17,392 nt of DNA from Deltaproteobacteria bacterium (GTDB lineage Bacteria; Desulfobacterota; Desulfobacteria; Desulfobacterales; B30-G6). A program made the position numbers and the translations under genes. This document shows, piece by piece, positions 1,169-16,782 of the stretch (position 1 is the stretch's first letter; every line of letters begins with the position of its first letter). The notes under the pieces were generated by a model that was not told the DNA's origin, did not search any database, and saw nothing but the letters and a program-made list of their open reading frames with translations. The stretch lies in the NCBI GenBank assembly GCA_003647375.1, contig QMMS01000063.1:1-17392 (forward strand), in the 5' to 3' direction.

Positions 1169-1561
1169 TTATTCAGGAACACCCAACTCTTCAAAAACAG
1201 CTACGATGCTTTTTTTATCTAAAAATCCAACATGACGTTTAATTTCTTTACCGTGTTTATCGTAAAAAATTTGAGTCGGAATACCACGAATACCGAAACG
1301 CTGGGCCTGCTCACGATGCTTCCAAACATCAATAAAAATAATTGAAGCTCGATCCTTATACTCTTTTTGGAGTTCGGCAATGATGGGAGCCATCATCTTG
1401 CAAGGAATGCATTTTTTTGCTCCTAAATCAACCATGGTAACTTGCCCAGGTGTTGGCACTGTTGGGATAGCTGTTTTTTTTGTACCATCGGCAAACGTCG
1501 TCGCCCCAACCAAAAAAGAAAGCATTAATCCAGTGAACATGAACCTCAGAAATTTTGTCAT
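1169..1561 (-). CDS. Exported thioredoxin-fold protein (CIPC)
   Basis: This 130-residue protein has an N-terminal signal peptide or anchor (residues 1-24, hydrophobic core FMFTGLMLSFLVGA ending TTFADG) and one thioredoxin domain. The active site is CIPC at C51-C54, preceded by VTMVDLGAKK. The cis-proline loop is GIRGIPTQIFYD. It is expected to act outside the cytoplasmic membrane as a dithiol reductant, probably recharged by a CcdA-type protein such as the one at 10544-11254. The start is supported by AAGGATC seven bases upstream. It is the last gene of the acr3 operon, 49 bases after the flavoprotein. Its sequence is very close to the thioredoxin at 11308-11730; both share CIPCKMMAPI and the SIVxxxxxLGV end. 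CxPC with Ile at the second position departs from the usual CGPC. The substrate cannot be read from the sequence. Confidence 0.85.
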   Translation of the reverse strand: MTKFLRFMFTGLMLSFLVGATTFADGTKKTAIPTVPTPGQVTMVDLGAKKCIPCKMMAPIIAELQKEYKDRASIIFIDVWKHREQAQRFGIRGIPTQIFYDKHGKEIKRHVGFLDKKSIVAVFEELGVPE

Positions 1562-1610
1562 AGATGATCCTTTTTAAGTAGATTGAAACTGCTGCCTGCG
1601 AGGTTTGAAG

Positions 1611-2960
1611 TTACAATTTGGAACACCAAAGCATAGCCGACATCTGAATAGGATCCCATGGAGAAGACAGCGGCGGCGTGTAGGAAAGATCCAGGTCGCA
1701 AAGCTCTTTTACAGCCATGCCGTGATACAAAGCGGTGGCAACGATGTCGACCCGCTTGGAAACCTCAGATTCACGATGGCCGACCAGTTGGGCTCCGAGA
1801 AGACGTCCGGTTGATCGATCCCCGGTCAATCTGATGTGCATTTCCTTGGCACCGGGATAGTACACCTTATGATCCCAGGTAGTCTGCATTACAGTCAGCG
1901 GATCAAAACCGGCTTCGGACGCTTCGTGCTCTCGCAGACCTGTTCTTGCGGCCACCTGGTCGAGGACCTTGACCACCTGGGTCCCTAGGCTTCCCTTGAA
2001 TTCGCAAGATCCACCCAGCATGTTCTCTCCTGCCACCCGGCCCTGCTTGTGGGCCGTGGTTCCCAATGGCATGTAAACATGGCGTTCGAGTATGCGGTGC
2101 CAAGTCTGGACGCAATCCCCGGCCGCCCAAATGTCCGTCGTTTGGGTGGCCATGTGACTGTCCACCTGGATGGCATTTCCAGCCCCAAGGCCGATGTCGG
2201 CGGATCGGGCGAGCTGTGTAGAGGGTTTGGCTCCGGCCGCCACGAGAACCATGTCTGCGGTTACAGTTTCACCGGATGCGGTATGCACCGTTAAAATATT
2301 TTCATTCCTCGATATGTGCTGGACCGCCTGTCCCGTGACCACCCGCACTCCCTTTGATTGAAGCTCAGCCCTGATGAAAGCGCCAAGTTCTGGGTCCAGC
2401 GTCGTCAACACCTCTGGAGCGAATTCCAACAGGGTGACCGTTATCCCCTTGTGGGTCAAGGCATCGGCCATTTCCAAGCCGATGTAACCACCGCCGATGA
2501 TAACGGCCTTATTAGGGTTTTCCCGGTCGAGAAACTTCTTTACAGCAAAGCTGTCATCTATCCAGCGCAAAAAAAAGACGCCAGGGTTTTCCAAACCTCC
2601 GATGGGAGGCTCAACCGATTCGGCACCTGTGGCGATCAGCAGTTTGTCATATTCTAACTGGCAAGTAGTTCCATCATCCGATCGCACATGCATCTGCTTG
2701 ACTTCCGAATCAATGGCCAGTGCCCGGTGTTCGAGCAGCAGATCGATGCCGTGCTGTTCGATCTCTTCGACGCTCCGGTGGGCCAGCGTCCGCCAGTCGG
2801 GCACTTCGCCGCTAAGGTAAAACGGCAGCCCGCAGATGCTGAAGTTGGGAAAGGCGTCGGCCACTACCACGCTGACCTTTGCTTGCAGGTCCAGCTCTTT
2901 TATACGTAGAGCCGCACTGATACCGGCGTCGCTGCCGCCGACGATAAGCATCTTCTTCAT
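1611..2960 (-). CDS. FAD/NAD(P)-dependent disulfide oxidoreductase, CoA-disulfide-reductase-like
   Basis: This is a 449-residue flavoprotein. The FAD-binding start is MLIVGGSDAGISAALR, the NAD(P)-binding glycine motif is VIIGGGYIGLEMADAL, and the second FAD motif is IWAAGDCVQ. A single active-site cysteine sits in NFSICGLPFY at C43, the position used by CoA-disulfide reductases, NADH oxidases and polysulfide reductases of the one-cysteine group. A C-terminal dimerisation domain follows (HKVYYPGAKEMHIR onwards). I place the start at the ATG at 2960, which puts the glycine motif at the N-terminus and lies just after the TAA of the upstream Fe-S gene. An in-frame start at 3017 would lie inside that gene. 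Position in the acr3 operon suggests reduction of a disulfide, persulfide or arsenic-thiol species, but the substrate is unknown. The ribosome site is weak (AAAGAG), consistent with translational coupling. Confidence 0.88.
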   Translation of the reverse strand: MKKMLIVGGSDAGISAALRIKELDLQAKVSVVVADAFPNFSICGLPFYLSGEVPDWRTLAHRSVEEIEQHGIDLLLEHRALAIDSEVKQMHVRSDDGTTCQLEYDKLLIATGAESVEPPIGGLENPGVFFLRWIDDSFAVKKFLDRENPNKAVIIGGGYIGLEMADALTHKGITVTLLEFAPEVLTTLDPELGAFIRAELQSKGVRVVTGQAVQHISRNENILTVHTASGETVTADMVLVAAGAKPSTQLARSADIGLGAGNAIQVDSHMATQTTDIWAAGDCVQTWHRILERHVYMPLGTTAHKQGRVAGENMLGGSCEFKGSLGTQVVKVLDQVAARTGLREHEASEAGFDPLTVMQTTWDHKVYYPGAKEMHIRLTGDRSTGRLLGAQLVGHRESEVSKRVDIVATALYHGMAVKELCDLDLSYTPPLSSPWDPIQMSAMLWCSKL

Positions 2961-2961
2961 A

Positions 2962-4344
2962 TTAATACTCTTTTTCTCTTGTCTTGTTACTCTCGTATGC
3001 ACGCAGGAGAATCTCAATCGGATGGTACACTGGATACGGCAACTGGTGTTGAAATTGGAGTCGACAGGACAAGCACTCCGTTATAACGGCATGCGGATCA
3101 GCATTTTTGATTTTTTTGATCAAGGGTGCGCTGAGTTCCATGGATTTATCATAGAACGCTTCTTTAAAACCTAAACTGCCGCCCATTCCACAACAATCCA
3201 TAGCGCCACCGACCTGTTCAATCTTCAAGCCTGGAATCAAATTCAACATATCCAGGTAGGGGCTCCCGATTCCTTGCTCACGTTGGTGGCAAGGGGCATA
3301 ATAAACCATGTGGGTATTCAGTTTGTCAGAATAGGACCTCAGCAGCTTATTTCGGTGCAACCTATTCAGATATTCGCCCATGTCCAAAATGTTTTCCGAC
3401 AAGGAGATTCGTTCCAGAGGGTTGAGGCTTGAAAAATAGGCGTCGTCCTTTAGTATTTTTTCATACATTGACTTTTTTAGACGAATGAAACCATTCTTTT
3501 TGGTCTTTTTTCCCGGGACTTTCATTTCATACTCGTCAGCATTTACAGATCGTTGATAGGCCTTGGAATAGCAAGCCCCCTCATTTAGAAGCACTTTCAT
3601 CAAAAACCCACAGGTTGGGCAAGAGCATACAAGTTTGTATCCGTTTTGAAGGGCTTTTAGAAGTGCTTGCACGTTGAAACGAACCCGCTCGAATGTCGTT
3701 CGTTCATCTCCTTCAAGCATGGTTGGCATACCACAGCACTGCTGGGGCGGCACATGGACGGAAATCCCGTTGTGCTGCAAAACCGCCACAGTGGCCTGGG
3801 CGACCTCGGGAAAGAGATATCCGGCAGTGCATCCGACAAAATAAGCTACTTTTGGAGATTGATGTGCTTCACGATCCAGGCCTTTCTTGCGTGCCCAAAC
3901 AAAGAAATTCTCCTCGGGTAGTCGGGGTAGATTGCGTCGTGGATGAATCCTTGCGACTTTTTTGGTAAAACGACTGACAGGGGAAAATGAAAAGGCCTTG
4001 TTCAAGGCTTTAGGGGCAAGACTTCCCCATCGTCCAATGCGTTGAACATCGGCCAGGAGACGAATATGAAGCGGCAAGCCTTTAGCTGAAACCCGCTCCG
4101 TTTTTGCCTGGATCACATCACCCCGGATGTTGGGACATGGACACAGGCCGCAGAGTGTGCAAAGCTCTGAGAGTCGCTGCAGTTCATCTTCACTAACAGG
4201 ATGGCCCTCCTCTTTTTCCTTGTCATACAGGCGGTAAAGCTCCGGAAAAAGCAGGCAGCTTTCATCCATGAGAAACCGGCATATATCGCAATCCGTGCAG
4301 GCGTCTAGGACACTGCGAACGGTCTTTGCCTGACTAACGGGCAT
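2962..4344 (-). CDS. GlpC/HdrD-like iron-sulfur protein with two CCG domains
   Basis: A cytoplasmic 460-residue electron carrier. Near the N-terminus are two 4Fe-4S cysteine clusters, CTDCDIC with a further Cys at 30, and [10 protein letters not shown] at 62-70. Two CCG domains follow: [13 protein letters not shown] with QQCCGMP, then [10 protein letters not shown] with MDCCGMGG and [10 protein letters not shown]. This is the layout of GlpC and heterodisulfide-reductase subunit D, which pass electrons to or from disulfides or quinones. The open frame extends to a TTG at 4368, but the ATG at 4344 is preferred because AGGG lies upstream of it. With that start it overlaps the acr3 stop by 11 bases, so the two are translationally coupled. 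The downstream flavoprotein starts two bases after its stop. The neighbours suggest an NAD(P)H-FAD-FeS electron path linked to arsenic handling; this role is an inference. Confidence 0.85.
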
Positions 4345-5524
4345 TGCTGAACCATCCCTGTGTGCCAAGGCAGATTTTAACCAGCATGAGCATTAACGGC
4401 ACTTCGATGAGTACACCCACCACAGTAGCCAGGGCTGCGCCGGACGAGAGGCCGAATAGCATGGTAGACGTGGCGATGGCCACTTCGAAATGATTGGAGG
4501 CGCCAATCATTGCCGCGGGGGCGGCATCCTCGTATCGAAGCTTCAGCAAGCGCGCCAGGCCGTATCCCAGTGAAAATATTAGTATGGTCTGAATAAATAA
4601 CGGTATGGCGATCCACAGGATTGTAAGGGGATTGCTGACGATCACCTCACCTTTAAAGGAAAACAGCAACACCAGGGTGATCAGCAGTGCGATGATCGTT
4701 ACCGGGGTCAGGACATGTAAAAATTTTTCTTTGAACCAAGCTTCTCCCTTGGTGGCAATAATCCATTTACGAGAAAAGTATCCCGCCACAAGAGGCAAGG
4801 CGACGTATATGCCGATGGAGAGCAGCAAGGCTTGCCAGGGTACGGGCAGGCGTCCTACGCCCAGCAGAACCCCACCCAGCACGCCGTAGAGTACCAGCAT
4901 GGTTAACGAGTTGATGGCCACCATCACCAGGGTCAATCCATCATTGCCTTTCGAGAGGAAGCCCCACACCAGCACCATGGCTGTACAGGGTGCAACCCCC
5001 AACAGAATGCATCCGGCCAGATAACTGCGCCACAAGGGCACTTCCAACATCTTTATACCATCCACAAGCACAACAGTACCCGCGCCGTGTGACGCACCAA
5101 CCGGCAAATCCAAGCCAAAAGGCATCTTAACCAGATCCACAGCATCGGGCCCAATAAAATTGTAAAACAGAGTGCCGAGAAAAAAAGTGGCAATCGCATA
5201 CATGGTAAATGGTTTGATGGCCCAGTTGATGAACAGGGTCAGGAACACCGGTTTGCCGCTTTTGCCAGCCTTGATGACCTCACCGAAATCAATTTTGACC
5301 ATAATAGGGTACATCATAAAAAAGAGGCAGATGGCAATGGGGATGGACACCACCGGTGCGCCGTTAACTGAAATGGCCAGGCTGTCGAGATATCGGGCTA
5401 TGCCAGGTGCGGCTTTACCAAGTAAAATGCCGACGATAATACACAGCACAACCCACAAGGAGAGAAAGCGTTCAAAGATGCTGGTCATCTTGCGTTCGCC
5501 GGGAGGGCTCTGGTCTGTATTCAT
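4334..5524 (-). CDS. acr3: ACR3-family arsenite efflux permease
   Basis: An inner-membrane transporter of 396 residues with about ten membrane segments, which exports arsenite (and often antimonite) using the proton-motive force. The family's essential cysteine is in [18 protein letters not shown] at C180. The conserved acidic residue of the late helix is E374 in [12 protein letters not shown]. The [12 protein letters not shown] signature (about 342-353) is also typical of ACR3. The start at 5524 has GGAGGT eight bases upstream; an internal Met at 13 is a less likely start. The gene follows arsR by 62 bases and overlaps the Fe-S gene, so it is the first structural gene of an arsR-acr3-FeS-FAD-thioredoxin operon, presumably derepressed by As(III) through the ArsR next to it. 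Assignment to ACR3 rather than to ArsB is firm. Confidence 0.95.
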
Positions 5525-5586
5525 ATGCTGGTTACCTCCGATTTTTAATGTCTGTGGCTTAAAAACCCTGATTTAATGAAGCATGC

Positions 5587-5973
5587 TCAAACCCGGGCCT
5601 CGCACCTATCGGTTTGGGCTTGACGGCTGCACAGAATTTCCGGATCAATTTTAAGAATCTCTATCAATCGTTGTTCATCCTCAACTGTCCTATGTTTATC
5701 CGCCAGGGACGACAAAACCCATGCCAAAGCAGTTTTAATCGCTTCAGGCGCATCCTCACCGGCCAATCGGTAGTACATCCACCGCCCCTGCTTTCTGCTG
5801 TTAACCAGGCGGGCATTTTTAAGGATTGACAGATGTTTGGAAACAGTAGAAGGGGCCAGACCCAAGAGTTCGATCAACTGGCATACGCACAACTCCCGGC
5901 TCCTCAGTGCACCGAGGATTCGAATCCGGCTCTCATCAGCGATTGCTTTGGTGGTCCTTACCAGTTGTCTCAT
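5587..5973 (-). CDS. arsR: ArsR-family As(III)-responsive repressor
   Basis: A 128-residue winged-helix repressor. The recognition region LAPSTVSKHLSILKNARLV (residues 39-57) and the wing GRWMYYRL are canonical. The metalloid site ELCVCQL provides C29 and C31, as in E. coli ArsR (CVCDLC), but the third cysteine of that motif is missing. Cysteines at 115 and 124 in the C-terminal tail (ILCSRQAQTDRC) could complete a three-coordinate As(III) site, which is an inference. The gene is first in the acr3 operon. A promoter with TATAGA and TTTCAT separated by 17 bases lies just upstream, with an inverted repeat in its spacer, fitting autoregulation. It resembles the second ArsR at 16783-17127 over the whole DNA-binding domain, but the tails differ. 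Confidence 0.93.
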   Translation of the reverse strand: MRQLVRTTKAIADESRIRILGALRSRELCVCQLIELLGLAPSTVSKHLSILKNARLVNSRKQGRWMYYRLAGEDAPEAIKTALAWVLSSLADKHRTVEDEQRLIEILKIDPEILCSRQAQTDRCEARV

Positions 5974-5983
5974 GGTTAATAAA

Positions 5984-6012
5984 TCTATACTTCGAAAAAT
6001 AACGAAATGAAA
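5984..6012 (-). promoter_or_regulatory. Putative arsR-acr3 promoter with operator-like inverted repeat
   Basis: On the minus strand, TTTCAT (6012-6007) and TATAGA (5989-5984) are separated by exactly 17 bases, just upstream of the arsR start at 5973. The spacer contains TTCG-N8-CGAA (6006-5991), an inverted repeat where an ArsR dimer would block RNA polymerase. The -35 is a weak match and the repeat arms are short, so this is a candidate only. A second small inverted repeat, TTGT-N2-ACAA, lies just upstream at 6014-6023. Confidence 0.45.
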
Positions 6013-6084
6013 ATTGTTTACAAAGTACCCAGAGAAATGTCAAGTAGAAGAACGAGATCGGTTGATATCTGAAGACTGCTCATA

Positions 6085-6107
6085 ATCAATCTATTGAAGC
6101 AATTGAT
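6085..6107 (-). terminator. Weak hairpin after the group B operon
   Basis: ATCAAT and ATTGAT arms of six bases, separated by 11 bases, lie downstream of the stop of the alkaline-phosphatase-family gene and before the arsR promoter. The stem is AT-rich and lacks a clear T-run, so it is a poor intrinsic terminator. It is recorded because no better candidate separates the two leftward operons; readthrough into arsR is therefore possible. Confidence 0.15.
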
Positions 6108-6131
6108 GTCTGTAGCTGCTGGTGAAAAGAT

Positions 6132-6947
6132 TCAAAACACGTCTTTCTCAAGCAGGTTTTCGATAATTTTTTTCAAACCGACCACTGAAAAGGAAATATT
6201 CTTATAACGCTCGACAGATACAGCATCCGAACAAATGATCAAGGGCAACCGGTAATCTTCCGGGTCCTGGCTGCCGTGTATTTTGTCATGGCCGGCATGA
6301 TCGCTGGTAATGATGATCAGGTATTGTTGTTTGTCTTTGATCAATTCGACCAGTGAGGATAGGTAGTCATCAATGAAGGACAATTCTTCCAAATATTCCG
6401 GGGACATCCATCCATACTCCGGCCCTACTTGATCTAGCCCGCTTACATGCAGGAATAAAAAATGTGAACCCGGGGTCTTGATAAATGCTTCGGCAAGGTC
6501 GATGGCATTATCTCGGGACAGCCGGTGCACATCGATTGCATCGTTGACAAGGTACCCCAGTTTTTGTTTGCTGTAAAAATATCCGGTTTGATATTTGTTA
6601 GATTTTGCACTGTTGAAAATTGTGGGTTTCTCGATTGCACCTTGTCCCGGCATCCAGGAATTATCCGTTTTACCGTTTTTTTCAGGGCTCATCCCCGTGA
6701 ACATTGCCGTGTGTGCGATCAGTGTTTTGGGCGGGTCTGTGCTTCGGCCTTTAAGGGTATAGGTGCCGGATTCCACCAATTGTCGGAGCGTTGGGATATC
6801 CGCCTCCCGGAGGGCGTTGGGATGCAGGGCGTCAATGGAAATGATGACGACGTTATGTAGATTCCCGGCATACCCAAGTCCAATGTCGGCAAGAAATAAA
6901 ACCAGTGCCGTGGTTATAATTGAACGCATTGCGTTTGTGATGGTCAT
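6132..6947 (-). CDS. Exported alkaline-phosphatase-superfamily phosphodiesterase-like protein
   Basis: This 271-residue protein has a signal peptide (residues 1-27, core IITTALVLFLADIGLGYAG). The fold signature of nucleotide pyrophosphatase/phosphodiesterases is visible: VVIISIDALHPNAL (metal-binding D39), PPKTLIAHTAMFTGMSP (Thr75, the nucleophile position by analogy with the family KTFPNHYSIVTG), GLDQVGPEYGWMSPEYL (D172) and IITSDHAGHD (D216, H217). The family normally has His in the DxxGH motif; here Pro176 replaces it, so one metal ligand may be lost or moved. It is shorter than most family members (typically 400 or more residues). AGGTAGGAAAG precedes the start. It is the last gene of the thiol/metal cluster, 61 bases after the 49-residue gene. 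The substrate is unknown; a sulfatase, phosphodiesterase or phosphonate hydrolase role cannot be separated. Confidence 0.75.
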   Translation of the reverse strand: MTITNAMRSIITTALVLFLADIGLGYAGNLHNVVIISIDALHPNALREADIPTLRQLVESGTYTLKGRSTDPPKTLIAHTAMFTGMSPEKNGKTDNSWMPGQGAIEKPTIFNSAKSNKYQTGYFYSKQKLGYLVNDAIDVHRLSRDNAIDLAEAFIKTPGSHFLFLHVSGLDQVGPEYGWMSPEYLEELSFIDDYLSSLVELIKDKQQYLIIITSDHAGHDKIHGSQDPEDYRLPLIICSDAVSVERYKNISFSVVGLKKIIENLLEKDVF

Positions 6948-7008
6948 ATCAGTTTATCTTTCCTACCTCGGTTTGATTGGGGCCGTAACAGGCCTCGAAG
7001 ACCGGCAC

Positions 7009-7158
7009 TCAATGGCGCTGCAGGGCTTTTTCAACTCTCTTGGCCAGGATGGATTTTACGAAAATAAGGGCGCGATCGTGATCATCGTCCAGACTGATGT
7101 GCATGATCTCGTCGATATCGTTTTTAGTCAACTGGAGTTGTACGGGTTTCAGATTCAT
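7009..7158 (-). CDS. Small conserved-looking protein, 49 residues
   Basis: An uninterrupted frame starts with ATG at 7158 and ends TGA at 7009; it lies between the DUF1573 gene and the phosphatase-like gene. It reads MNLKPVQLQLTKNDIDEIMH at the start and continues with an acidic ISLDDDHDR segment and a basic, helix-forming end (FVKSILAKRVEKALQRH). It has no signal peptide and no Cys, so it is probably cytoplasmic. A GAGAGAAAG purine tract lies about five bases upstream. Its start is 16 bases after the preceding stop, which fits the tight spacing of the operon. I do not recognise the family and give no function. Support is the reading frame, the operon position and the ribosome site. Confidence 0.5.
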   Translation of the reverse strand: MNLKPVQLQLTKNDIDEIMHISLDDDHDRALIFVKSILAKRVEKALQRH

Positions 7159-7174
7159 GATCTTTCTCTCATAT

Positions 7175-7897
7175 TCATTGGATCATTCCGATGATGTAAA
7201 TGGGGATATTGGGTCTTATTTTGCTGTCGGTTGTGACATCAAGGACATCCGCGTAACGGCCCTTTTGGGGTAGAGTGTTCTTCACCCGGATGACGCAGCG
7301 GTTATTGCCGTCAGTGCAGCGCTCCTTCAATTCGTATTGGAAAAATTTTCCCTTTTTGGATCTTAGATTTCCCTTTCTGGCTCTTAGATGTTCAATGGTA
7401 AACGGATATTCCTTCCTGGGGATGATCACCACGTCTACCTGGATAGGTTCCCCCACCTTTCCTTTCAAAAGTACCCTTTCCGGGCTTATTTCTGCGAATT
7501 TTTCCACCATGCCGGTTACGGCCACTTCAATCCAGGGCCGGTTCGGATCATTTGTTTTAATGCGTACACTTTCACGAATTTTCCTACCGCCGTAGCCTCC
7601 GGTGCTGACGTTAACCTGGATGCGCCCCTCCTGCCCGGGAGGGATCTGCCGCGTACTGGTCGCGGCCGTACAGCCTCAGCCGGATTTGATATCGTGGATG
7701 AGAAGATCTGCATCGCCCTTATTTTGAATAACAAACCCATGGGCAACCTGGCGGCCTTCCACCACCGTTTGAAATTCAAAGACATTTTCAGGAAGAAATG
7801 CCTGCGGCTCCCGGGACGGAGTGTCAGCCGCCCAGGCTAAAGCAGGAACAAGCAGAGCACACATAATGCTAAGGCACCATCGTTTGTTCAGCGACAT
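7175..7897 (-). CDS. Exported DUF1573 protein, probable selenoprotein (in-frame UGA)
   Basis: The frame runs from ATG at 7897 (AGGAGC six bases upstream) to 7175 with one in-frame TGA at 7678-7676, giving 240 residues if read as selenocysteine. Residues 1-24 are a signal peptide (SIMCALLVPALAWAAD). Residues 38-130 form a DUF1573 (Ig-like) domain: VFEFQTVVEGRQVAHGF, IQNKGDADLLIHDIKSG, then the UGA at 74, then GCTAATSTRQIPPGQEGRI and SVRIKTNDPNRPW. Family members have CGC where this has UGA-G-C, so the stop lies exactly on the first conserved Cys. A second domain of about 105 residues follows in the same frame. The gene is 25 bases after the CDF-MauE fusion; DUF1573 and MauE-type genes being neighbours suggests a shared periplasmic thiol or metal task. 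The alternative is a nonsense mutation, but a conserved frame and domain on both sides argue against old decay. Confidence 0.82.
7648..7666 (-). promoter_or_regulatory. Putative bacterial SECIS hairpin
   Basis: Nine bases after the in-frame UGA of the DUF1573 gene, the mRNA can form a perfect six-base-pair stem, GCCGCG with CGCGGC, closing a seven-base loop ACCAGUA. The loop begins 16 bases after the UGA, at the near limit of the 16-37 base window described for bacterial SECIS elements, and contains a GU step as in E. coli fdhF. G at the loop edge is available if the top pair opens. A second hairpin (CCCUCC/GGAGGG) follows about 38 bases after the UGA. GC-rich hairpins are common, so this supports but does not prove recoding. 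Confidence 0.5.
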
Positions 7898-7922
7898 ATT
7901 AGCTCCTATGGTTAGACCGATT

Positions 7923-9452
7923 TTATGGTTGGCGTTGTGTTCCTGGCAGTTTTGAAGCCGCCGGTCGCAGGAAAAAAACATATAGACTGATATATACTGA
8001 TGCGGCCAGAAAACTTAAGTCACGCACAATGGTCCACAATCCGGCAGGACTTGCGGTGGTAGCGGTGGCAAAACATCCGCAGTGAATGTCCAGTCCTCGG
8101 ACCTGATTGAATAAAAGAGCGGATATAAATACGGTCAGCATGCCTGTACTCATCAACGTGGCGCCCGGCAGCCAGAGGCCGCTTACCAGGCACAACCCCA
8201 CCAGCAACTCTATCCAGGGCAGGATAAGGGCCACCAGGTTGACTGCTGCATCCGGCAGAATCTGGTAATTGTAAACCGCTTCGGCAAACGCCAGAGGGTG
8301 CAGGATCTTGTCGTAGCAGGCGTACAGGAATACGCCTCCCAGGGCTAAACGAAGCACATGGAACACGATTGGCTGAACCCGGTAGGTGCCTTGCGCTGCA
8401 TCCGGTGTGCCGCTGTTTTTGGTTTCCGATGCATGCTCGGGATCGCCGTTGCAAGCCATTTCGCACAGCAGGGTCCCCTGGCCGCAGTCGGCGGTTTCAA
8501 ATTGCAGCACTGGATGGTCGATGTTATAGCGGTGCCGCAATTCATGCCGGATGCGCTTATTCAGTTGGGCGGTATGACTGACCGGTTGGTCGGGCACCAC
8601 AACATGGCAGGAAAAAGCGGTGCTATCAGAAGAAACCTGCCAGGCGTGCAGGTAGTGTACCCCAATAACGCCAGGCAGATCGGCCAGGAAGGCGCGGACT
8701 TTTTCAAGATGGATATGACCGGGGGTGGCATTCATCAGCACAGCAGTAGATTCCCTTAGAAGGCTCCAGCCGGTTTTCAGGATAAAGGCCACGATGAGCA
8801 CAGAGAGCAGGGGATCGAGCCAGTACCACGGATAAAACATCAGCAATACACCGTTGATGAGAACTACCACGGAAGTCAAAAGATCGCCTACCATGTGCAG
8901 GAAGGCCCCGCGCATGTTCAAACTGTGGGCAGCGTCCCGGTGCAGCAGTACGGCTGACAATCCGTTGCCGATCACTCCGACGCCCGCCAGAACGATCACC
9001 ACAAGGCCATTGATCGCCTGGGGATGTAGAAAACGATGCATGGCATGGTAAAGGATGACCCCCGAAGCGCCGACCAAAAGAATAACGTTGATCAAAGCCG
9101 CCATGATTTCAGCCCGCCGGTACCCAAAGGTATTGGCCACAGTCGCACCCTTGTGACCGATACGATAGGCGATGTATGAAATCAGCACGGCCGTAAAATC
9201 GCTGAAATTGTGAACCGCGTCTGAAATCAGGGCCACACTGTTGGCCATCAGGCCGCCTATGACCTGGGCCGTGGGAATGAGGAAATTCAGGGCCAGGGTG
9301 ATCAGCAGTCGGGACCCGCTGGTGTCACTGGGATCCGGTCCATGGTGATGATGGTCAGAATGACCGCTTTTTTCTGCCGCAAGCGGGTCGCTGTCATGCT
9401 CGTCGTCCCATTCATGGGCATCGTTTGGTTCCCTATTTATTTCTTCACTCAT
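7923..9452 (-). CDS. Cation diffusion facilitator fused to a MauE-like membrane domain
   Basis: A 509-residue inner-membrane protein in one uninterrupted frame. Residues 1-45 are acidic and His-rich (HSDHHHHG). Residues 46-325 form a CzcD/ZitB-type CDF transporter with six membrane segments and the paired metal sites HNFSD (81-85) and HMVGD (186-190), which in this family move Zn2+, Cd2+ or Co2+ out of the cytoplasm against protons. The cytoplasmic domain ends HPVLQFETADCGQG, as in stand-alone CDF proteins. After a Cys-containing linker (326-360), residues 361-495 form a second four-helix domain like MauE/DoxX, with DKILHPLAFAEAVYNYQILP and a CGCF motif at 458-461. MauE helps maturation of disulfide-rich periplasmic methylamine dehydrogenase. 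It starts four bases after the rhodanese stop and is followed by the DUF1573 gene. The fusion is unusual; no frame break is visible. Confidence 0.87.
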   Translation of the reverse strand: MSEEINREPNDAHEWDDEHDSDPLAAEKSGHSDHHHHGPDPSDTSGSRLLITLALNFLIPTAQVIGGLMANSVALISDAVHNFSDFTAVLISYIAYRIGHKGATVANTFGYRRAEIMAALINVILLVGASGVILYHAMHRFLHPQAINGLVVIVLAGVGVIGNGLSAVLLHRDAAHSLNMRGAFLHMVGDLLTSVVVLINGVLLMFYPWYWLDPLLSVLIVAFILKTGWSLLRESTAVLMNATPGHIHLEKVRAFLADLPGVIGVHYLHAWQVSSDSTAFSCHVVVPDQPVSHTAQLNKRIRHELRHRYNIDHPVLQFETADCGQGTLLCEMACNGDPEHASETKNSGTPDAAQGTYRVQPIVFHVLRLALGGVFLYACYDKILHPLAFAEAVYNYQILPDAAVNLVALILPWIELLVGLCLVSGLWLPGATLMSTGMLTVFISALLFNQVRGLDIHCGCFATATTASPAGLWTIVRDLSFLAASVYISLYVFFLRPAASKLPGTQRQP

Positions 9453-9456
9453 TTTA

Positions 9457-9948
9457 TCAATTCATCTCCATATCGGCCGGCAGTCCGGCTTCTTGCCATA
9501 TGGTCCAGCCATTGACAAGCAGACGAACATTTTCAACACCCATGTCTTTTAGAAAGTTGGCCAGTTCATGACTCAATGTACAGCTTTCACCGTCGCAGTA
9601 GGTAATAATCGTTTTCGAGTCGTCCAGTTTGTCGGCCGCATCCATGAAATAGCGGTCCACATCCTGCCAGGGAATGCTCAAGGCTCCGCGAATATGCCCT
9701 TGGGCATACAGGTTTTGCGGTCGTGCATCCACGAAAAGAGCATTACCCTTGGTAAAGAGTTGACTGGCCTGCTCCAGAGTTACGACCAGGCTTTCGCCCA
9801 GAGCATCTGAAAAACGTGTCTCAACAGACCATTCGCCAACTATCGGTATGCTGTCGGCACGCCAATGATTGGCACCGATGGTCAATATCCCGGCCAGCAC
9901 AGCGAGAACGGGTGCCTGCCAGATAGATTGCTTCAATGAATTATTCAT
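9457..9948 (-). CDS. Membrane-anchored rhodanese-like sulfurtransferase
   Basis: This 163-residue protein has an N-terminal hydrophobic helix (residues 10-26, IWQAPVLAVLAGILTIG) and a single rhodanese domain facing the periplasm. Rhodanese landmarks are LFVDARPQNLYAQGHIRGAL (71-90) and the active-site loop YCDGESCTLS with the catalytic Cys at 118. A second Cys at 123 in the loop and the lack of Arg or Lys in it differ from thiosulfate sulfurtransferases, so the substrate may be another persulfide or an oxidised metalloid. AGGTGA precedes the start. It lies 19 bases after the other rhodanese and four bases before the CDF-MauE gene, within the same operon. The hydrophobic segment could be a cleaved signal peptide, but no good cleavage site is seen. 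Confidence 0.85.
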   Translation of the reverse strand: MNNSLKQSIWQAPVLAVLAGILTIGANHWRADSIPIVGEWSVETRFSDALGESLVVTLEQASQLFTKGNALFVDARPQNLYAQGHIRGALSIPWQDVDRYFMDAADKLDDSKTIITYCDGESCTLSHELANFLKDMGVENVRLLVNGWTIWQEAGLPADMEMN

Positions 9949-9967
9949 TAATCACCTGAATATGCAC

Positions 9968-10423
9968 CTACTTTGATTGAACGGAATTGACGAAATCCCT
10001 TGCTTTATCCCCGCGCAGATGTTCGGCTAACCCCACCAGGCCGTCGACCAGATACTTTGACCGGAACCCTTTGGTTCTCAGATAGGCCATCGCCAGGATG
10101 GCACGGTCCTTGTGCGGACAGGCCGTGACGATAATTTTATCTTTCTGCAATTGATCCAGTCTTTCTGGCAGTTCATTCAGTGGAATATTGATCGCGCTTC
10201 CCATGCGCCATGCTTCGAATTCCTCCTGGAAACGAATGTCAATTAATTGAATTTTAACTTCCATGAGACCTTTGACTAATGATTTGCTATCGATCTTCAT
10301 ATCTTTCCTGGCCTGGTAGTCGAATTCGGAAAGATAGCCTTCCAGAGACTGGTCTTTCGCATAGGCGGTTGTGAAGCAGGCCGCCAAGAGGATCAATGCT
10401 ACTACAAAAGTTCTTTTTTTCAT
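9968..10423 (-). CDS. Exported rhodanese-like protein
   Basis: This 151-residue protein has a clear signal peptide (MKKRTFVVALILLAACFTTA, cleavage after YA-K near 22) and one rhodanese domain. IQLIDIRFQEEFEAWRMGSA (58-77) is the typical first motif, and the active-site loop is TACPHKDRA with Cys at 102. The loop carries Lys and Arg, unlike the acidic loop of the neighbouring rhodanese, so the pair probably differs in substrate. AAAGGA lies nine bases upstream of the start. It follows ccdA by 120 bases; this gap holds a small inverted repeat (TGACC/GGTCA) but no terminator. It is expected to carry or transfer sulfane sulfur in the periplasm; partner unknown. Confidence 0.85.
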   Translation of the reverse strand: MKKRTFVVALILLAACFTTAYAKDQSLEGYLSEFDYQARKDMKIDSKSLVKGLMEVKIQLIDIRFQEEFEAWRMGSAINIPLNELPERLDQLQKDKIIVTACPHKDRAILAMAYLRTKGFRSKYLVDGLVGLAEHLRGDKARDFVNSVQSK

Positions 10424-10543
10424 GTTACATATCCTTTATATTCATTTTTTTTTAATATTATGACCCAGACAGGTCACGAGTTTTCCTCCGCGGTTTATCG
10501 ATAGCCGCGAGTATGTCGGCAGAAACAAGATCGTTGTTTCCGG

Positions 10544-11254
10544 TCAGGCGCCGCCAAGAAACGGGTTGGAAATAAAATAAACCCCCAGCAAGGCGATCAC
10601 GACACCGGCACTGCGCCGGAACCACAATCCGGCTCCCTGCCAGGTACTGTTTTCGGTGAGTTTGCGCACCATTGCCGTGGAGCTGCCGGCCACGGCAATG
10701 GGCAGACAGTGCCCTAAAGCAAAGAGGATCATCATCAGCGAGCCGGTGACGATTTTCTGCTGTACTGAAACGATGGCCAGAATCGGGGCGATAAATCCGA
10801 ACGTGCAGGAACCCGATAAAACACCATAGGCCAGGCCCAAACCAAAAGCGCCATGGATCCCGCGCAACTTGAGTCGATAAAGCAATGAGCCTGACATGGA
10901 GCAGGCCTGCACCCCCAGCATGCCCAGGGCCACCCAGATCAATACAACACCAACCAGTACCTGCCACCAGATGCCCACATCGCCAAGCATGCGTCCCAAA
11001 AGCGCACACACAATGCCTACGGCGGCGATAGTGATAAACAGCCCAATGGTGAAGGCGCCGGCATACCAGCTGGCCCTGCGGGGGTTTAGGGCATTTTCTT
11101 GGCCGCCCACGTATGCCACGATCAGCGGGATGGATGCTAGGTGGCAGGGGCTGAAGAGCACGCTCACCATGCCCCAGGTAAAGGCACCTATTGCAGCGAT
11201 GCCCGAACCGCTTGACATCCACAGGTTGACAGTGACTAAGAATTGATCGAACAT
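10544..11254 (-). CDS. ccdA: CcdA-type transmembrane dithiol transporter
   Basis: A six-helix inner-membrane protein of 236 residues that passes electrons from cytoplasmic thioredoxin to exported thioredoxin-fold proteins. The paired redox cysteines are C37 in SVLFSPCHLASIPLI and C150 in GVLSGSCTFGFIAP, the two hallmark motifs of CcdA and of the DsbD membrane domain. Length and ending are normal for CcdA. AAGGAG precedes the ATG, with a spacing of about 11 bases. It lies directly downstream of two exported thioredoxins in the same operon, which are its likely clients along with the paralogue at 1169-1561. Cytochrome c maturation genes are absent from the window, so a dedicated role in metal or metalloid thiol chemistry is more likely than haem attachment; this is an inference. 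Confidence 0.93.
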   Translation of the reverse strand: MFDQFLVTVNLWMSSGSGIAAIGAFTWGMVSVLFSPCHLASIPLIVAYVGGQENALNPRRASWYAGAFTIGLFITIAAVGIVCALLGRMLGDVGIWWQVLVGVVLIWVALGMLGVQACSMSGSLLYRLKLRGIHGAFGLGLAYGVLSGSCTFGFIAPILAIVSVQQKIVTGSLMMILFALGHCLPIAVAGSSTAMVRKLTENSTWQGAGLWFRRSAGVVIALLGVYFISNPFLGGA

Positions 11255-11307
11255 AATTGGATTAACTCCTTTATTGTCCCGAGTTGTGTTTAGGGGCAGC
11301 GTTCATA

Positions 11308-11730
11308 TTATGAAACGCCCAGCTTTGCAAGCTTCTGAACGATACTTTTTTTATCCATAAAACCCTCGTGGCGAAAGGCTTCACGACCTTCGGCGTCGAA
11401 AAATATTTGTGTTGGGATAGCGCGGATACCATATTTTTTGGCCTGGTCCGGGTTTTTCCACACATCGATGAAGATGATGTCGGCCTTGCCGGCATATTCT
11501 TTTTCCAGCTCTTCCATGATGGGGGCCATCATTTTGCAGGGGATGCACTCGGTAGCTCCCAAGTCAATCATGGTCACTTTTCCGAGTGCCTTTATCGCGG
11601 TAGATTGTGTCGATAAAGCGCTTGTATCACACGGAGTTAGCAAATATTGCGACCGAACAGCACCGAATATCACCAATGCGACAATAAACCCCACTGCAGA
11701 AATTCCTAACAATTTCTGGTTCTTTTTCAT
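11308..11730 (-). CDS. Membrane-anchored or exported thioredoxin-fold protein (CIPC)
   Basis: This 140-residue protein has an N-terminal hydrophobic segment (residues 7-25, LLGISAVGFIVALVIFGAV) and one thioredoxin domain with CIPC at C62-C65 in DLGATECIPCKMMAPI. The cis-Pro loop is GIRAIPTQIFFD and the end is DKKSIVQKLAKLGV. No sharp signal cleavage site is visible, so it may stay anchored. The ATG overlaps the TGA of the upstream SurA/thioredoxin gene in an ATGA, so the two are translationally coupled. It precedes ccdA by 53 bases, a typical pairing of reductant and membrane electron donor. Its thioredoxin domain is strikingly like the protein encoded at 1169-1561, so the two arose by duplication. 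Confidence 0.88.
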   Translation of the reverse strand: MKKNQKLLGISAVGFIVALVIFGAVRSQYLLTPCDTSALSTQSTAIKALGKVTMIDLGATECIPCKMMAPIMEELEKEYAGKADIIFIDVWKNPDQAKKYGIRAIPTQIFFDAEGREAFRHEGFMDKKSIVQKLAKLGVS

Positions 11731-12667
11731 TTTTTAACCCCCATTGCTGCAAGCTGCTTGTCCACTTCTGTTTGTGCGAAAAACCCCGTGTGCCTAAATA
11801 CCTCCTCGCCCCGCGTGTCGTAAAATACCTGCACCGGTATGGACCGGATACCGAAGCGAGAAGCCAGAATCTTATCTTCGCGTACATGCACGAAGACCAC
11901 ATTCAGTTTATCGGGAAAATCCTTGCGCAGCTTTTCCAGTATGGGCTGCATCATGTCACAGGGGACACACCCCGTGGCACCGAATTCAACCATGGTCGGT
12001 TTGCCCGACCGCCGGGCCCTGTCCACGGGGTTGTCTTGGCCAATCGTCCGTGCTCAGCTGTCCACTGTTCATTAAGACGTATTTTTGATTTATTGCCCAG
12101 TCCCTGGATATAATTTTCCACCATCTGTTGTTTTTTGTCCTGAAGCAAATACCCGCGAATGTTATCGGCCACCTGTTCAAAAGGAGCGCCGCCCATCATT
12201 TCCTTGTTAGCGGAATAAAATGTGCGCATTTCGTTTTCGGATACGGAAAGCGATTGCATCATCTGTTCGAACAGACGCTGTATCGCCTGGCTGTCATTCC
12301 CTTGGTCATTAGAAATACCGGCTCTTTGGGCTTCCCGGAGAAGGATTTGCTGGGTGGCTTCCTGCTCGAGTACGAAAATCAGGTTTTTTTCCAGCTGTAA
12401 ACGCAACTTGGGCTCCTGCTGCTGTGTAGTCGCCATGAGCTGTGATTGTTTGATGCGAATATCACCGGATATCAACAGCGTATCGGCATCCATCGCTTCC
12501 AGCACTGCAGATTTGAGCAGCCCATTGGTGAGCCCAGGATAGCGTTCACCCAAGGTGTCTGCCATCGATTCATGTTGAAATCCTGCGGTCAGAAACAAAA
12601 GCAAGAGGAAAAACAGTCCATATCGTAGGGCGTGCTTGAATTCAGATCGAACAATTGCAAAGTGCAT
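11727..12667 (-). pseudogene. SurA-like/thioredoxin fusion protein, split by a one-base frameshift
   Basis: The first part starts at ATG 12667 (AAGGA ten bases upstream) with a hydrophobic signal segment (GLFFLLLLFLTAGF) and a SurA/PpiC-like N-terminal helical region of about 170 residues (ADTLLISGDIRIKQSQLM onwards, rich in Gln). At about 12035 the frame is lost after LAK. One base earlier in phase, the sequence continues as DNPVDRARRSGKPTMVEFG and a full thioredoxin domain with CVPC in TGCVPCDMMQPIL, a cis-Pro in IRSIPVQVFYD and the end AAMGVKK at 11727. One added base would give about 313 continuous residues. Both sides look well conserved, so this may be a recent mutation or a sequencing error rather than old decay. 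It is the first gene of the thiol/metal operon and is coupled by ATGA overlap to the next thioredoxin. Confidence 0.75.
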
Positions 12668-12710
12668 CGTAATCATTTCCTTAATTTGTAAGTTCAAAAT
12701 ATATCATCGA

Positions 12711-12866
12711 ATGGCATTACCATATGAATCCGTGTATTGGAAAACGATTCGTGGGGCATATAATCCATCATCCGGGCGGGCCTATCTGACCCTGAAAGGC
12801 AAGACGGTCACGATTAATTTGTCGGATGAGGAGTTAACAAATCAGGGAACAGTGAAAAGAGAATAA
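12711..12866 (+). CDS. Possible small protein, 51 residues
   Basis: A plus-strand frame starts at ATG 12711 (MALPYESVYWKTIRGAYNPS) and ends TAA at 12866 with INLSDEELTNQGTVKRE. The composition is protein-like, with alternating hydrophobic and polar residues that suggest a small beta sheet. No ribosome binding site is visible, the family is unknown, and its last 33 bases overlap the end of the minus-strand gene at 12834-13226. It would be the only internal gene on the plus strand. It may be a gene remnant or chance. Confidence 0.22.
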   Translation: MALPYESVYWKTIRGAYNPSSGRAYLTLKGKTVTINLSDEELTNQGTVKRE

Positions 12867-13226
12867 AGGCGGTGGGATATATGATAAAGGTAATTTCAGC
12901 AAAACCTTGCTATATTTATAGTGAGATAAGGATAAGGTCTGTGGTGCTTCAACCGATGAGTCTATTTTAAGCAGATGCGAGATCTGTTCACTCTTAGACC
13001 GTCCGGATGGTGAATTCGGTAAGAGGAAAAGGGTGCCCTTCTGGGTCCGGCATGGATGTACATGGCAGGTACCGGCGGTGGTTTTTCCGAGGCCGTCGTT
13101 CAGGTTCCGGTTTTTTTGACAGGGTGATTTGCCTGCTTGCGGTGAAAGGGCGGTACACGCCCCACCGGTAGCCATGCTCAGAGCCACGGTCAAGACAACA
13201 ATAATTTTGAAAAACTTATGACCCAT
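12834..13226 (-). CDS. Small exported Cys-containing protein of unknown function
   Basis: A 130-residue frame starts at ATG 13226 with a signal peptide (KFFKIIVVLTVALSMATGG, Cys at 24). The mature part has Cys at 36, 54, 59, 126 and 130, a TCHVHPC segment, and a hydrophobic proline-rich end (LSYIPPPLFSFHCSLIC). Short exported proteins with a YIPPPLF-like tail are, as far as I recall, met next to heavy-metal efflux genes, but I cannot name a family. GATGA... CACVH-type metal binding by the Cys/His segment is plausible but unproven. The longer frame from 13313 has no better ribosome site and would overlap the DnaJ-domain gene. The ribosome site at 13226 is poor (GGTGAG, 13 bases away). It would be the last gene of the ArsP operon. 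Confidence 0.45.
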   Translation of the reverse strand: MGHKFFKIIVVLTVALSMATGGACTALSPQAGKSPCQKNRNLNDGLGKTTAGTCHVHPCRTQKGTLFLLPNSPSGRSKSEQISHLLKIDSSVEAPQTLSLSHYKYSKVLLKLPLSYIPPPLFSFHCSLIC

Positions 13227-13260
13227 AGTGAATTCAGTCTCACCAACTTTTTGGTTAAGA

Positions 13261-13584
13261 TCAAGCTTTATTTTTGGATAAGTACAGCTTACACATCCAA
13301 TAGAAGCTCTCAAATGGATGCAGGTCTTGGTGATAACCGTATTCTGGATATCGACCGTGTGGCTTCATTCCACCAGGCATTTCATCGGTTTGCATGATGA
13401 CGTCATAAGCATATTGAATCTGTTTGAAACGGGATTCTGCTCCCGGTTTATTTGGATTCAGGTCCGGGTGGCAACGTTTGACCAGATGTCGATACGCCCT
13501 TTTGATCGTCAACTTGTCGGCGCCTTTGGTTATGCCCAGAACCTGGTATGGATCGTATGTATCATTCAGATCAGGCCGGTTCAT
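13261..13584 (-). CDS. Short DnaJ-domain protein
   Basis: This 107-residue cytoplasmic protein is mainly a J domain: DPYQVLGITKGADKLTIKRA (11-30), the HPD tripeptide at 39-41 that stimulates Hsp70 ATPase, and FKQIQYAYDVIM (53-64). After the J domain there is a short His- and Tyr-rich tail (GRYPEYGYHQDLHPFESFYW) ending in LSKNKA. The glycine-rich linker, zinc fingers and substrate domains of full DnaJ are absent, so it is a class III-like J protein that would recruit DnaK to a particular client. It starts 40 bases after the Fe-S protein gene; AGAAGA and GGAAGG precede the start. A helper role in Fe-S assembly or metal-protein maturation, as with HscB, is suggested only by this neighbour. Confidence 0.82.
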   Translation of the reverse strand: MNRPDLNDTYDPYQVLGITKGADKLTIKRAYRHLVKRCHPDLNPNKPGAESRFKQIQYAYDVIMQTDEMPGGMKPHGRYPEYGYHQDLHPFESFYWMCKLYLSKNKA

Positions 13585-13624
13585 TCTTCTTTTTTAATCC
13601 TTCCCGGTATTTACGGAGGGCGTA

Positions 13625-14149
13625 TCAATCTGCCAGGTTGAATCTGCCCATGTAGTCCTCCATTTTCAGAAGTTGATCCGAATCCAGGGGTGTACAGGCA
13701 TCGGCCCCTTTGGCCCCTTCAGCCACTCGGGCGGCGAACACCATGCAGGTGGGTTCCCCGCACTCGCGGCAGTTGGTCTTTGGGAGTAGTTTGAAAATTT
13801 CGAACAACTGTGGCCGGGGGGCACCCTTTAAGCTTGGCTCGATGTTTTCTTTGTTTTCCCATGCCTCATTGATCTCCCGCTTGAGCCACTCGACGATTTT
13901 GCGCGCTTCAGCCTCGTCCTTCAGGGCGTTGACAGCGATCTTGTGGCTATGCACGGTAATCAGTTTGCCCTGGGCCTTGAAAGTTACTGAAGGCGGGTCC
14001 TGAATATATTCGAAGCTGCCCAGGACAGTGTTCAAATAGGGCAATGCCTTTCTCACATCCTGATCCAAATGGGCAAAACAATGTACGCCCATGGCGCTGG
14101 GGTTGCATTTTGAGTTAAATATTTCCAACCGGTAACTTTCAAGTAACAT
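13625..14149 (-). CDS. Four-cysteine Fe-S domain protein
   Basis: A cytoplasmic protein of 174 residues. The C-terminal part carries a Cys pattern of the Fes domain type (as in the corrinoid subunit of acetyl-CoA synthase): LLPKTNCRECGEPTCMVFAA with C127, C130, C135 and a fourth Cys at 152 in GADACTPL, which would bind one 4Fe-4S cluster. Residues 1-110 form an uncharacterised domain with Cys at 15 and 24 (SKCNPSAMGVHC) and a VHSHK segment that may bind metal. GGGGA lies ten bases before the start. It follows the DGC-protein gene in the ArsP operon and precedes the DnaJ-domain gene. The family occurs in anaerobic Desulfobacterota; a redox role towards arsenic or its neighbours is an inference. 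Confidence 0.8.
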   Translation of the reverse strand: MLLESYRLEIFNSKCNPSAMGVHCFAHLDQDVRKALPYLNTVLGSFEYIQDPPSVTFKAQGKLITVHSHKIAVNALKDEAEARKIVEWLKREINEAWENKENIEPSLKGAPRPQLFEIFKLLPKTNCRECGEPTCMVFAARVAEGAKGADACTPLDSDQLLKMEDYMGRFNLAD

Positions 14150-14212
14150 GGTGGCATTTCCCCATTATAAGCCCTTTAGGGCGATTCGTGGTTTCCTCCT
14201 GATAAAATCGAT

Positions 14213-14641
14213 TCAGCACTTTGTGCAACTGCCGCCACCCGTCGTCGGGACCGCTTCAACAGGTCCGTTTTCACTCACCATCCGTCTGATAGCCGACTTG
14301 ACCTGTTCGATATCAGCACGTTCGAGATTGAAATTCTTGTTCTTTTCGATGCCCTCTTCGGTGATCATCATGTAGTGTTTCAGCGGCACCTGGGCGTTCT
14401 CCAATATTGCCTTGGCGCAGCCCACCGGGCAGCCGTCAACGGCCACCATCACCGGAACATCCCTGGCTGACTGCACGAAGCCGGAAAGCTGCCCGCCGAT
14501 GCCTGCCAGGCAGAACACCTTACCGAAGCCTTCCTGGGTTAACTCAATGGCTGCCTGGTTGGATAGCTGCCCCACATTAGAGCCACCCGAGCATGCCAAA
14601 ATCATGATATCGGCACCACCTTCACAACAATTATCAGCCAT
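14213..14641 (-). CDS. DGC-domain putative metal-binding protein
   Basis: This 142-residue cytoplasmic protein has the DGC signature DGCPVGCAK (C71, C75) with the partner motifs ILACSGGSNVGQLSNQAA (C17) and VFCLAGIGG (C44), the four cysteines thought to bind zinc or another soft metal in this family. Extra cysteines are found at both ends: MADNCCEGG and a GGGSCTKC tail. The N-terminal CC and C-terminal CxxC are additional candidate soft-metal ligands. AAGGGGG precedes the start. It sits between the small CPKC thioredoxin and the Fe-S protein in an operon led by ArsR and ArsP. Its biochemical role is not known; an arsenic- or metal-chaperone role is an inference. Confidence 0.87.
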   Translation of the reverse strand: MADNCCEGGADIMILACSGGSNVGQLSNQAAIELTQEGFGKVFCLAGIGGQLSGFVQSARDVPVMVAVDGCPVGCAKAILENAQVPLKHYMMITEEGIEKNKNFNLERADIEQVKSAIRRMVSENGPVEAVPTTGGGSCTKC

Positions 14642-14708
14642 TATAGCCCCCTTCTTTTCTACCGAGTTTTTGTTTGATTACGCTGGTGTGCTCTGGAATA
14701 AATTCAAG

Positions 14709-14733
14709 TAGTGGTTTCGATAAGGAAACACTA
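14709..14733 (-). repeat. Intercistronic hairpin
   Basis: Arms TAGTGTTTC and GAAACCACTA pair with a single bulged base around a loop of about six bases, in the 127-base gap between the 76-residue thioredoxin and the DGC gene. No T-run follows on the minus strand, so it is more likely an mRNA processing or stability element than a terminator. Confidence 0.3.
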
Positions 14734-14768
14734 TTGAAAGGTCTCATAAATAATTTCCCGGCAAGTTC

Positions 14769-14999
14769 TTACTTGATCCAGGCCAGAACCTCTTCTTTTT
14801 TGGGAATCTTGCCCACGGATTTCACTTCTCCGTCAACGACCACGGCTGGTGTACCGAACACACCGAAGCCGGCTATTTTCATCGTATCAGTGACTTTTTC
14901 AATCTCGGCCGCTACACCGGCTTCGGCCACTGCCTCTTTGACCACTTTTTCCGTCTGCTGGCATTTAGGGCAGCCAGGGCCCAACACTTTGATGTCCAT
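14769..14999 (-). CDS. Small redox-active disulfide (thioredoxin-like) protein, CPKC
   Basis: This 76-residue cytoplasmic protein is a minimal thioredoxin/glutaredoxin fold of the redox-active disulfide protein 2 type. It starts MDIKVLGPGCPKCQQTEKVV with CPKC at C10-C13, has the cis-Pro segment VFGTPAVVVDGEV, and ends KKEEVLAWIK, all at the expected positions. The start at 14999 has AAGGGGA seven bases upstream and gives the usual family length; a longer frame to 15086 lies inside the upstream gene. It begins 13 bases after the frameshifted homologue, so the two form a tandem duplicate. Members are often next to ArsP-like permeases and DGC proteins in anaerobes. It probably reduces or carries a metalloid or thiol in the cytoplasm. 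Confidence 0.9.
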   Translation of the reverse strand: MDIKVLGPGCPKCQQTEKVVKEAVAEAGVAAEIEKVTDTMKIAGFGVFGTPAVVVDGEVKSVGKIPKKEEVLAWIK

Positions 15000-15012
15000 T
15001 TTTATCCCCTTT

Positions 15013-15500
15013 CTATGCGGCCTGAACGATCCAGGCCTTAAGTTTTGCCCTGGGCGGAACTGAGCCCACGGCTTTGACTTTACCATTGATTACCAACGCC
15101 GGGGTGCTCATGACGCCATAGCGTCCAATTTCGGTCAAGTCACGCACATGATCCAGTGCGCCCACAACCCCGACTTCTGCCATAACGGCCATCATTTCCT
15201 GCTCCAGTCGTTCACACTGGGGCAGCCAGGGCCAAGCACCTTGATATCAACCCCATTGCTGCACTCCTCTGAGAAAGACTCTCCGACCAATTTCTTATAT
15301 TCACGTAAGAACGCCTGTTTATACTGATCTATCGCATTATTGGTGATATAGTTCCGCTTGGAGAGCCGTGTGAGAAGCTCTTTCTGAATTATTTCATCCG
15401 GTGCCCCTGTCATGGTTTCCGCCACTTCCGCCAGTACTTCCTTGAGACCGATGATGCTAATTTGGTGCTGACCGACGCGGATTTGAATAACATCGTTCAC
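15013..15500 (-). pseudogene. Two-domain thioredoxin-like protein, frameshifted within CPxC
   Basis: The gene starts at GTG 15500 with AGGGG five bases upstream, eight bases after the permease stop. Residues 1-80 are an N-terminal helical domain (IQIRVGQHQISIIGLKEVL, then FLREYKKLVGES). Residues from about 84 are a thioredoxin-like domain: VDIKVLGPGCP. In the sequence as given, the frame then runs into PSVNDWSRK and a stop at 15192. One base back, the sequence continues CERLEQEMMAVMAEVGV, YGVMSTPALVINGKV and ends AWIVQAA at 15013. The break is at a CCCC run (15219-15222); one more C would give CPQC and 162 continuous residues. The clean flanks point to a homopolymer sequencing error, a recent mutation or slippage at CCC. 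Confidence 0.75.
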
Positions 15501-15508
15501 AATATCCC

Positions 15509-16681: not shown

Positions 16682-16702
16682 AACACTTGCTCCTATTGGG
16701 TG

Positions 16703-16735
16703 GCCTCACAACGTACCCGCGATGTTGCGGGAGGC
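16703..16735 (-). repeat. Hairpin between arsR and arsP
   Basis: On the minus strand GCCTC-CCGC, a six-base loop AACATC, then GCGG and, after a nine-base bulge, GAGGC can pair. It lies in the 101-base gap between the second ArsR gene and the permease, with the permease ribosome site just after it. There is no T-run, so it could lower or separate downstream expression rather than end transcription. The structure is read by eye only. Confidence 0.3.
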
Positions 16736-16782
16736 TACATTCATATTTTGTCATGTAACGATATAATGAGGCCAAAAAAAAA

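Follow-up and report, generated by a model that had tools for sequence, protein, structure and literature searches.

A DUF1573 gene interrupted by an in-frame UGA

The window, as we call the whole 17,392-nucleotide stretch of DNA analysed here, carries on its minus strand a DUF1573/OS_HP2 family gene (7175..7897) whose reading frame is crossed by a TGA at 7676..7678. If this codon is read as selenocysteine (Sec), as the frame and the alignment of homologues indicate, it gives Sec74 in the context SG-U-GC within a protein of 240 amino acids, which ends at a TGA of its own (7177-7175). The ribosome site AGGAG precedes the ATG at 7897, and the first codons (7829..7897, minus strand) specify a putative signal peptide, recognised by eye and appearing as a low-confidence helix in the structure model. 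The C-terminal part contains a cysteine pair, C194 and C201 (codons within 7295..7318, minus strand). A plain listing of open reading frames splits the gene into a 101-residue ORF (7981-7676), which contains the 73 codons ahead of the TGA, and a 116-residue ORF (7525-7175). Re-reading the sequence reproduced the coordinates, frame, motif, ribosome site and TGA position (7678-7676) of the original prediction. Its claim that homology runs through the TGA also held, with U replaced by C: the Pfam model PF07610 (DUF1573) matches residues 37-122 and spans the codon (E 6e-17; score 61.9 against a cut-off of 26.1). A HYDIN-type Ig model from Pfam matches residues 37-126. We saw no second candidate among the other in-frame UGAs in the window, for which frames were listed with TGA as U and two were translated, and scanning the window with Rfam (gathering threshold) and for tRNAs gave no match.

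An AlphaFold2 model built from 36 sequences is all-beta (mean pLDDT 90.7, pTM 0.78) and places Sec74 between strands 65-72 and 77-81. Strand order and Foldseek matches suggest two Ig-like domains. The Foldseek matches, led by HYDIN-type axonemal chains and including PDB 2qsv, are generic Ig/HYDIN-type domains and point to no function.

Upstream on the same strand, 25 bases away, lies a gene whose product joins a CDF cation-efflux domain to a membrane domain of MauE type, the latter with a CGCF motif (7923..9452). It is followed by genes for a rhodanese-domain protein in the same gene run (9457..9948), a second rhodanese-domain protein (9968..10423), a DsbD/CcdA-type membrane protein (10544..11254) and a thioredoxin with an N-terminal hydrophobic stretch noted by eye (11308..11730), all on the minus strand and all assigned with Pfam. 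The surroundings form an arsenic and thiol-redox island (1169-17127) with an ACR3 arsenite exporter, two ArsR-type regulators, an ArsE-type thioredoxin, an ArsP permease, CcdA and several thioredoxins, together with CoA-disulfide-reductase-like and GlpC-like proteins that score below the NCBIfam cut-offs. Two thioredoxin-related ORFs (15192-15572 and 11727-12697) are apparently broken by frameshifts. At another locus, L074, a long ORF resembles the CDF-MauE fusion of the window.

The UGA recurs in relatives and exchanges with cysteine codons

Searching the collected loci by tblastn gave 47 matches. The codon is covered by 45 of these, and every one has TGA; the window gene is counted among them, as are several genes that were fetched repeatedly, and the distinct Sec sequences number 39. 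Plasmid and viral sequence collections yielded no relative. The first six loci came from GTDB species genomes, all MAGs titled Desulfobacteraceae, Desulfobacterales or Thermodesulfobacteriota. TGA is present in the five that span the site, and the sixth (L006) consists of the C-terminal part only. These six host genomes contain ten DUF1573 matches, nine with one TGA, all over the Pfam cut-off, and a tenth that is stop-free and below it. A class-wide search matched the protein in 342 of 389 genomes. Among the 150 matches listed, 141 have a single in-frame stop, which is TGA in every case and never TAA or TAG, and nine are stop-free; the position of the TGA in the alignment column was confirmed for 30 returned loci and 11 fetched stretches of this search. 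Together, these counts make the Sec form look common in the class.

The nine stop-free relatives, which we fetched, have TGC (seven) or TGT (two) at the first Cys of a CGC motif. This agrees with the earlier claim that DUF1573 proteins have the Cys of a CGC motif at this position, and the check proposed at the time, an alignment of homologues at this column, came out in its favour, with a recurrent TGA and with TGC or TGT in nine relatives. Cys/Sec exchange among homologues, by which bacterial selenoproteins are recognised, is therefore seen in this family, and the in-frame UGA falls on the first Cys of CGC as in the UxC motif of the OS_HP2 family. The residue preceding the site is Gly in 37 of the 39 Sec forms and Asp in the other two, and Ser or Thr in eight of the nine Cys forms. 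Two loci have two DUF1573 sites each: L099 with two TGA codons and L104 with one TGA and one TGC.

Protein databases returned 48 matches, 28 of them aligned. Seven of these cover the site, with W in five, C in one and R in one; the W probably comes from gene callers using code 4. The other 21 are fragments that begin past the UGA, and together with the five Trp entries they show why annotation matters in this family.

Past the UGA, the median dN/dS was 0.30 (Nei-Gojobori; 58 pairs with dS below 1.5, which share genes and are not independent). Among the 20 pairs listed, values ranged from 0.19 to 0.50 before the UGA and from 0.15 to 0.54 after it. Judged from these comparisons, the region downstream of the TGA is under purifying selection.

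Two hairpins directly follow the UGA

Folding of the window gene revealed two hairpins within the 63 bases past the UGA, which form a SECIS-like region (7613..7675, minus strand) with hairpin 1 at about 7648-7666 and hairpin 2 at about 7625-7644. In hairpin 1 of the window gene the 5' arm is shifted by about three bases, giving six pairs and a seven-base loop. We measured covariation in 39 ungapped Sec sequences and compared them with nine Cys sequences. In the Sec set, 92.8% of the cells of hairpin 1 are paired, with two-sided changes at four of its five pairs, and 80.2% of those of hairpin 2, with two-sided changes at two of its seven pairs. On four of five measures, none of the 500 shuffles came up to the whole two-hairpin structure, and on the fifth 2 of 500 did; the shuffles do not preserve relatedness among the sequences. 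Sliding the helices by -1 gave as many pairs with two-sided changes as the true register (6 vs 6) and more further pair types (16 vs 15), but far lower values for cells paired (59.0 vs 85.5%) and for the covariation score (0.132 vs 0.242). RNAalifold recovered parts of the same two helices. In the nine Cys sequences, no covariation measure rose above the shuffles.

Synonymous recodings served as a control for folding energy that removes the coding constraint. Against these, hairpin 1 had a mean z of -2.53 in the Sec genes (p<0.05 in 28 of 39) and -0.12 in the Cys genes (1 of 9). The corresponding values were -2.08 (23 of 39) and -0.20 (0 of 9) for hairpin 2, and -2.29 (25 of 39) and -0.03 (2 of 9) for both hairpins together. 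The result for hairpin 1 was similar on new loci from a phylum search, tested with a cruder codon model (-2.51, 14 of 23 Sec; -0.29, 0 of 3 Cys); this test used 30 loci, with L105, which lacks the motif, left out and five duplicates dropped. A stem-loop past the UGA, expected of a selenoprotein gene, is thus kept in the Sec and not in the Cys forms. The exception is the Cys gene L069 (5485-5550), which retains hairpin 1 and Sec-type flanks (TG-C-GC) and likely contains a fossil SECIS left by a recent change from Sec to Cys.

The bSECIS model described in the 2026 review PMC13188914 sets constraints on the stem-loop (G in the first two positions of the loop, 16-37 nt, an MFE no higher than -7.5), and the same source mentions a subset of genes that fail it. 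With contiguous stems within 66 bases, the window gene failed the published constraints, which 4 of the 39 Sec and 1 of the 9 Cys genes passed. A limited literature search found no description of a two-hairpin element, from which we do not claim that it is absent from print. The two-hairpin SECIS of DUF1573, mostly failing the published bacterial model, is possibly new, and it offers a testable case for the range of SECIS structures accepted by bacterial SelB.

Selenocysteine machinery in genomes of relatives

We searched the host genomes of relatives for Sec machinery. In the hosts of the first six loci, selC exceeded its cut-off in five of six (all but G003) and selB in five of the same six (G005 has pieces only), with cut-offs that are not exclusive, being passed for selC by 5 and for selB by 2 of 14 control genomes. 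ARAGORN identified all five selC genes as tRNA-Sec with anticodon tca. Among sixteen relatives, selA was present in 15 and selD in 14, and the 17 selD matches over the cut-off have one TGA each. The presence of selA did not separate genomes with the TGA form (35 of 40) from stop-free genomes (33 of 40); these 80 genomes, 40 per kind, were a hand-chosen part of the matches listed, and stop-free here describes matches with no stop, whatever their codon at the site. Five TGA-form genomes lack selA, and the Pfam model gave no SelA match in them either; in these five, tRNA-Sec exceeded the cut-off in all and selB in four. Missing contigs likely explain the absent selA, perhaps with the exception of G427. 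This genome of about 2.5 Mb (locus L113) has a TGA-form DUF1573 gene, selB and tRNA-Sec over the cut-off, with the listed matches all on one contig (C1). Two models gave no SelA match in it, and a weak SepSecS-like match lies far below the cut-off.

A second tRNA-Sec gene (anticodon tca) was observed in two genomes, G002 (L021/L013, contig C75) and G004 (L014). The extra gene in G002 adjoins a near full-length selB over the cut-off, and a selC with a higher score is located on a different contig. Such second genes may reflect either MAG contamination or a second Sec-decoding set.

Two gene contexts and a possible redox relay

Gene context was surveyed at 26 loci whose flanks were long enough, 17 with Sec and 9 with Cys; 20 had been picked by hand. 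Two contexts of Sec genes emerged. At six loci (L075-L080), DUF1573 lies after PriA and before a HAD-type hydrolase, identified by Pfam on L075 (both proteins) and L080 (PriA) and by blastp cluster at the other loci. In the second, window-type context, rhodanese and MauE precede DUF1573; in the window itself, MauE follows a CDF transporter within one fused protein. The second Cys pair (C194/C201 in the window) is present in 8 of 36 full-length Sec genes, three incomplete genes having been left out, and MauE lies directly upstream of six of these eight. The remaining two have a thioredoxin (L002) or a weakly thioredoxin-like protein (L082) instead. MauE is absent beside the six PriA-linked genes, and all seven MauE-containing ORFs of the cluster have CGCF. 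A limited literature search found no description of these two contexts, which is no claim of their absence from print.

The product would be a secreted, Ig-like DUF1573 selenoprotein of the OS_HP2 family, for which SelB and tRNA-Sec would decode UGA 7678-7676 as Sec with the aid of the hairpins directly downstream. Sec74 and Cys76 may alternate between a selenenylsulfide and the reduced selenol/thiol, and electrons may be exchanged with the MauE-type membrane protein encoded upstream and with the CcdA/thioredoxin/rhodanese set. The CDF-MauE protein is probably the redox partner of the DUF1573 protein, a link that we infer. Together, these steps would make up a periplasmic redox relay inside an arsenic-resistance and thiol-redox island. 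We offer this relay with MauE as a proposal of somewhat less than even probability.

Alternative explanations

Support for selenocysteine in place of the first Cys of CGC comes from the recurrence of the TGA, the exchange of Cys and Sec among homologues, the SECIS-like hairpins past the codon, the purifying selection downstream and the Sec machinery of most relatives tested. UGA 7678-7676 is thus very probably decoded as Sec. TGA is one base away from TGC and TGT and two further window ORFs apparently have broken frames, so the codon could in principle be a sequencing error or the stop of a dead gene; TGA in many separate assemblies, in all 45 spanning matches and in 141 of the 150 matches listed, with purifying selection and covarying hairpins beyond it, makes this highly improbable, and we reject it for the family. 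Reassignment of UGA to Trp or Gly throughout the genome (codes 4 and 25) would fit the W in five of the seven aligned database entries that cover the site, yet nine stop-free relatives have Cys there, and UGA also serves as an ordinary terminator, in 8 of 36 Sec genes and in 9 of the 19 ORFs examined in the window. A genome-wide code change is rejected, as a UGA terminator exists in the same gene, and of all the readings weighed here we give it the least credence. Termination is known to compete with Sec decoding at UGA, which lends some plausibility to regulated termination, with the codon acting mostly as a stop that yields a functional, secreted product of 73 residues and with read-through as the minor outcome. 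A product of this length would break off halfway through the first DUF1573 domain, and the dN/dS ranges of the 20 pairs listed are similar on both sides of the UGA; we consider this reading improbable.

The remaining alternative accepts Sec and differs on its function: the U-x-C motif could be a soft-metal or arsenite-binding site and not a redox couple. The neighbouring arsenic genes (ACR3, ArsR-type, ArsE-type and ArsP) and the fusion of CDF to MauE are in keeping with a metal site. On the other hand, the six PriA-linked U-x-C paralogues lie between PriA and the HAD hydrolase, away from metal genes, and the window region is also rich in thioredoxin, CcdA and rhodanese proteins. Metal binding appears rather unlikely, though less so than the three readings above.

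Relation to known selenoproteins and SECIS elements

The original prediction joined two claims, that UGA encodes Sec at the first Cys of CGC and that Sec had not been described in DUF1573 proteins. The former is strongly supported, and the latter was mistaken, the family being already in print. A table in the 2022 review PMC9312934 has DUF1573 (pfam07610, motif UGC) as a selenoprotein family, as does one in PMC13188914 (PF07610, motif UGC), and a 2008 table (PMC2398784) has OS_HP2 (pfam07610, motif UxC), the cited source of which is a 2007 Olavius paper known to us through the citation. NCBIfam holds a curated model, NF041425 ('OS_HP2 family (seleno)protein'), which the window protein passes (136.2 bits; cut-off 100). 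That DUF1573 proteins can contain Sec is established and has been published since about 2008. We tentatively suggest, as a combined proposal of which we are rather doubtful, that the DUF1573 SECIS is a distinct class of two covarying hairpins outside the standard model and that window-type proteins serve a Sec relay with MauE in arsenic islands.

The window protein shares the domain and the U-x-C/UGC motif with the OS_HP2/DUF1573 family, from which the window gene and seven relatives differ by the extra C-terminal Cys pair, six of the eight lying directly behind MauE. MauE/DoxX-type proteins (PF07291) with CGCF adjoin the window-type genes, and the MauE of the window differs from them in its fusion to a CDF transporter. 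PDB 2qsv, a bacterial protein of unknown function, is the one solved chain that a profile search turned up (E 0.00046), and it is a Foldseek match of the window protein as well; the CGC motif is absent from it in the alignment, which rules it out as a carrier of the motif and leaves it as a fold relative only. The nine Cys DUF1573 proteins (PF07610) come from the same class and are the same protein with CGC for UGC. They differ from the Sec forms in lacking Sec, and hairpin 1 is not above expectation in eight of the nine. With the bSECIS described in PMC13188914, the Sec genes share a stem-loop inside the coding region directly downstream of the UGA. Unlike that model, they have two hairpins. 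The apical loop of the first lies at a distance of 14-18 nt from the UGA and mostly lacks G at its first two positions; that of the second lies mostly at a distance of 37-39 nt.
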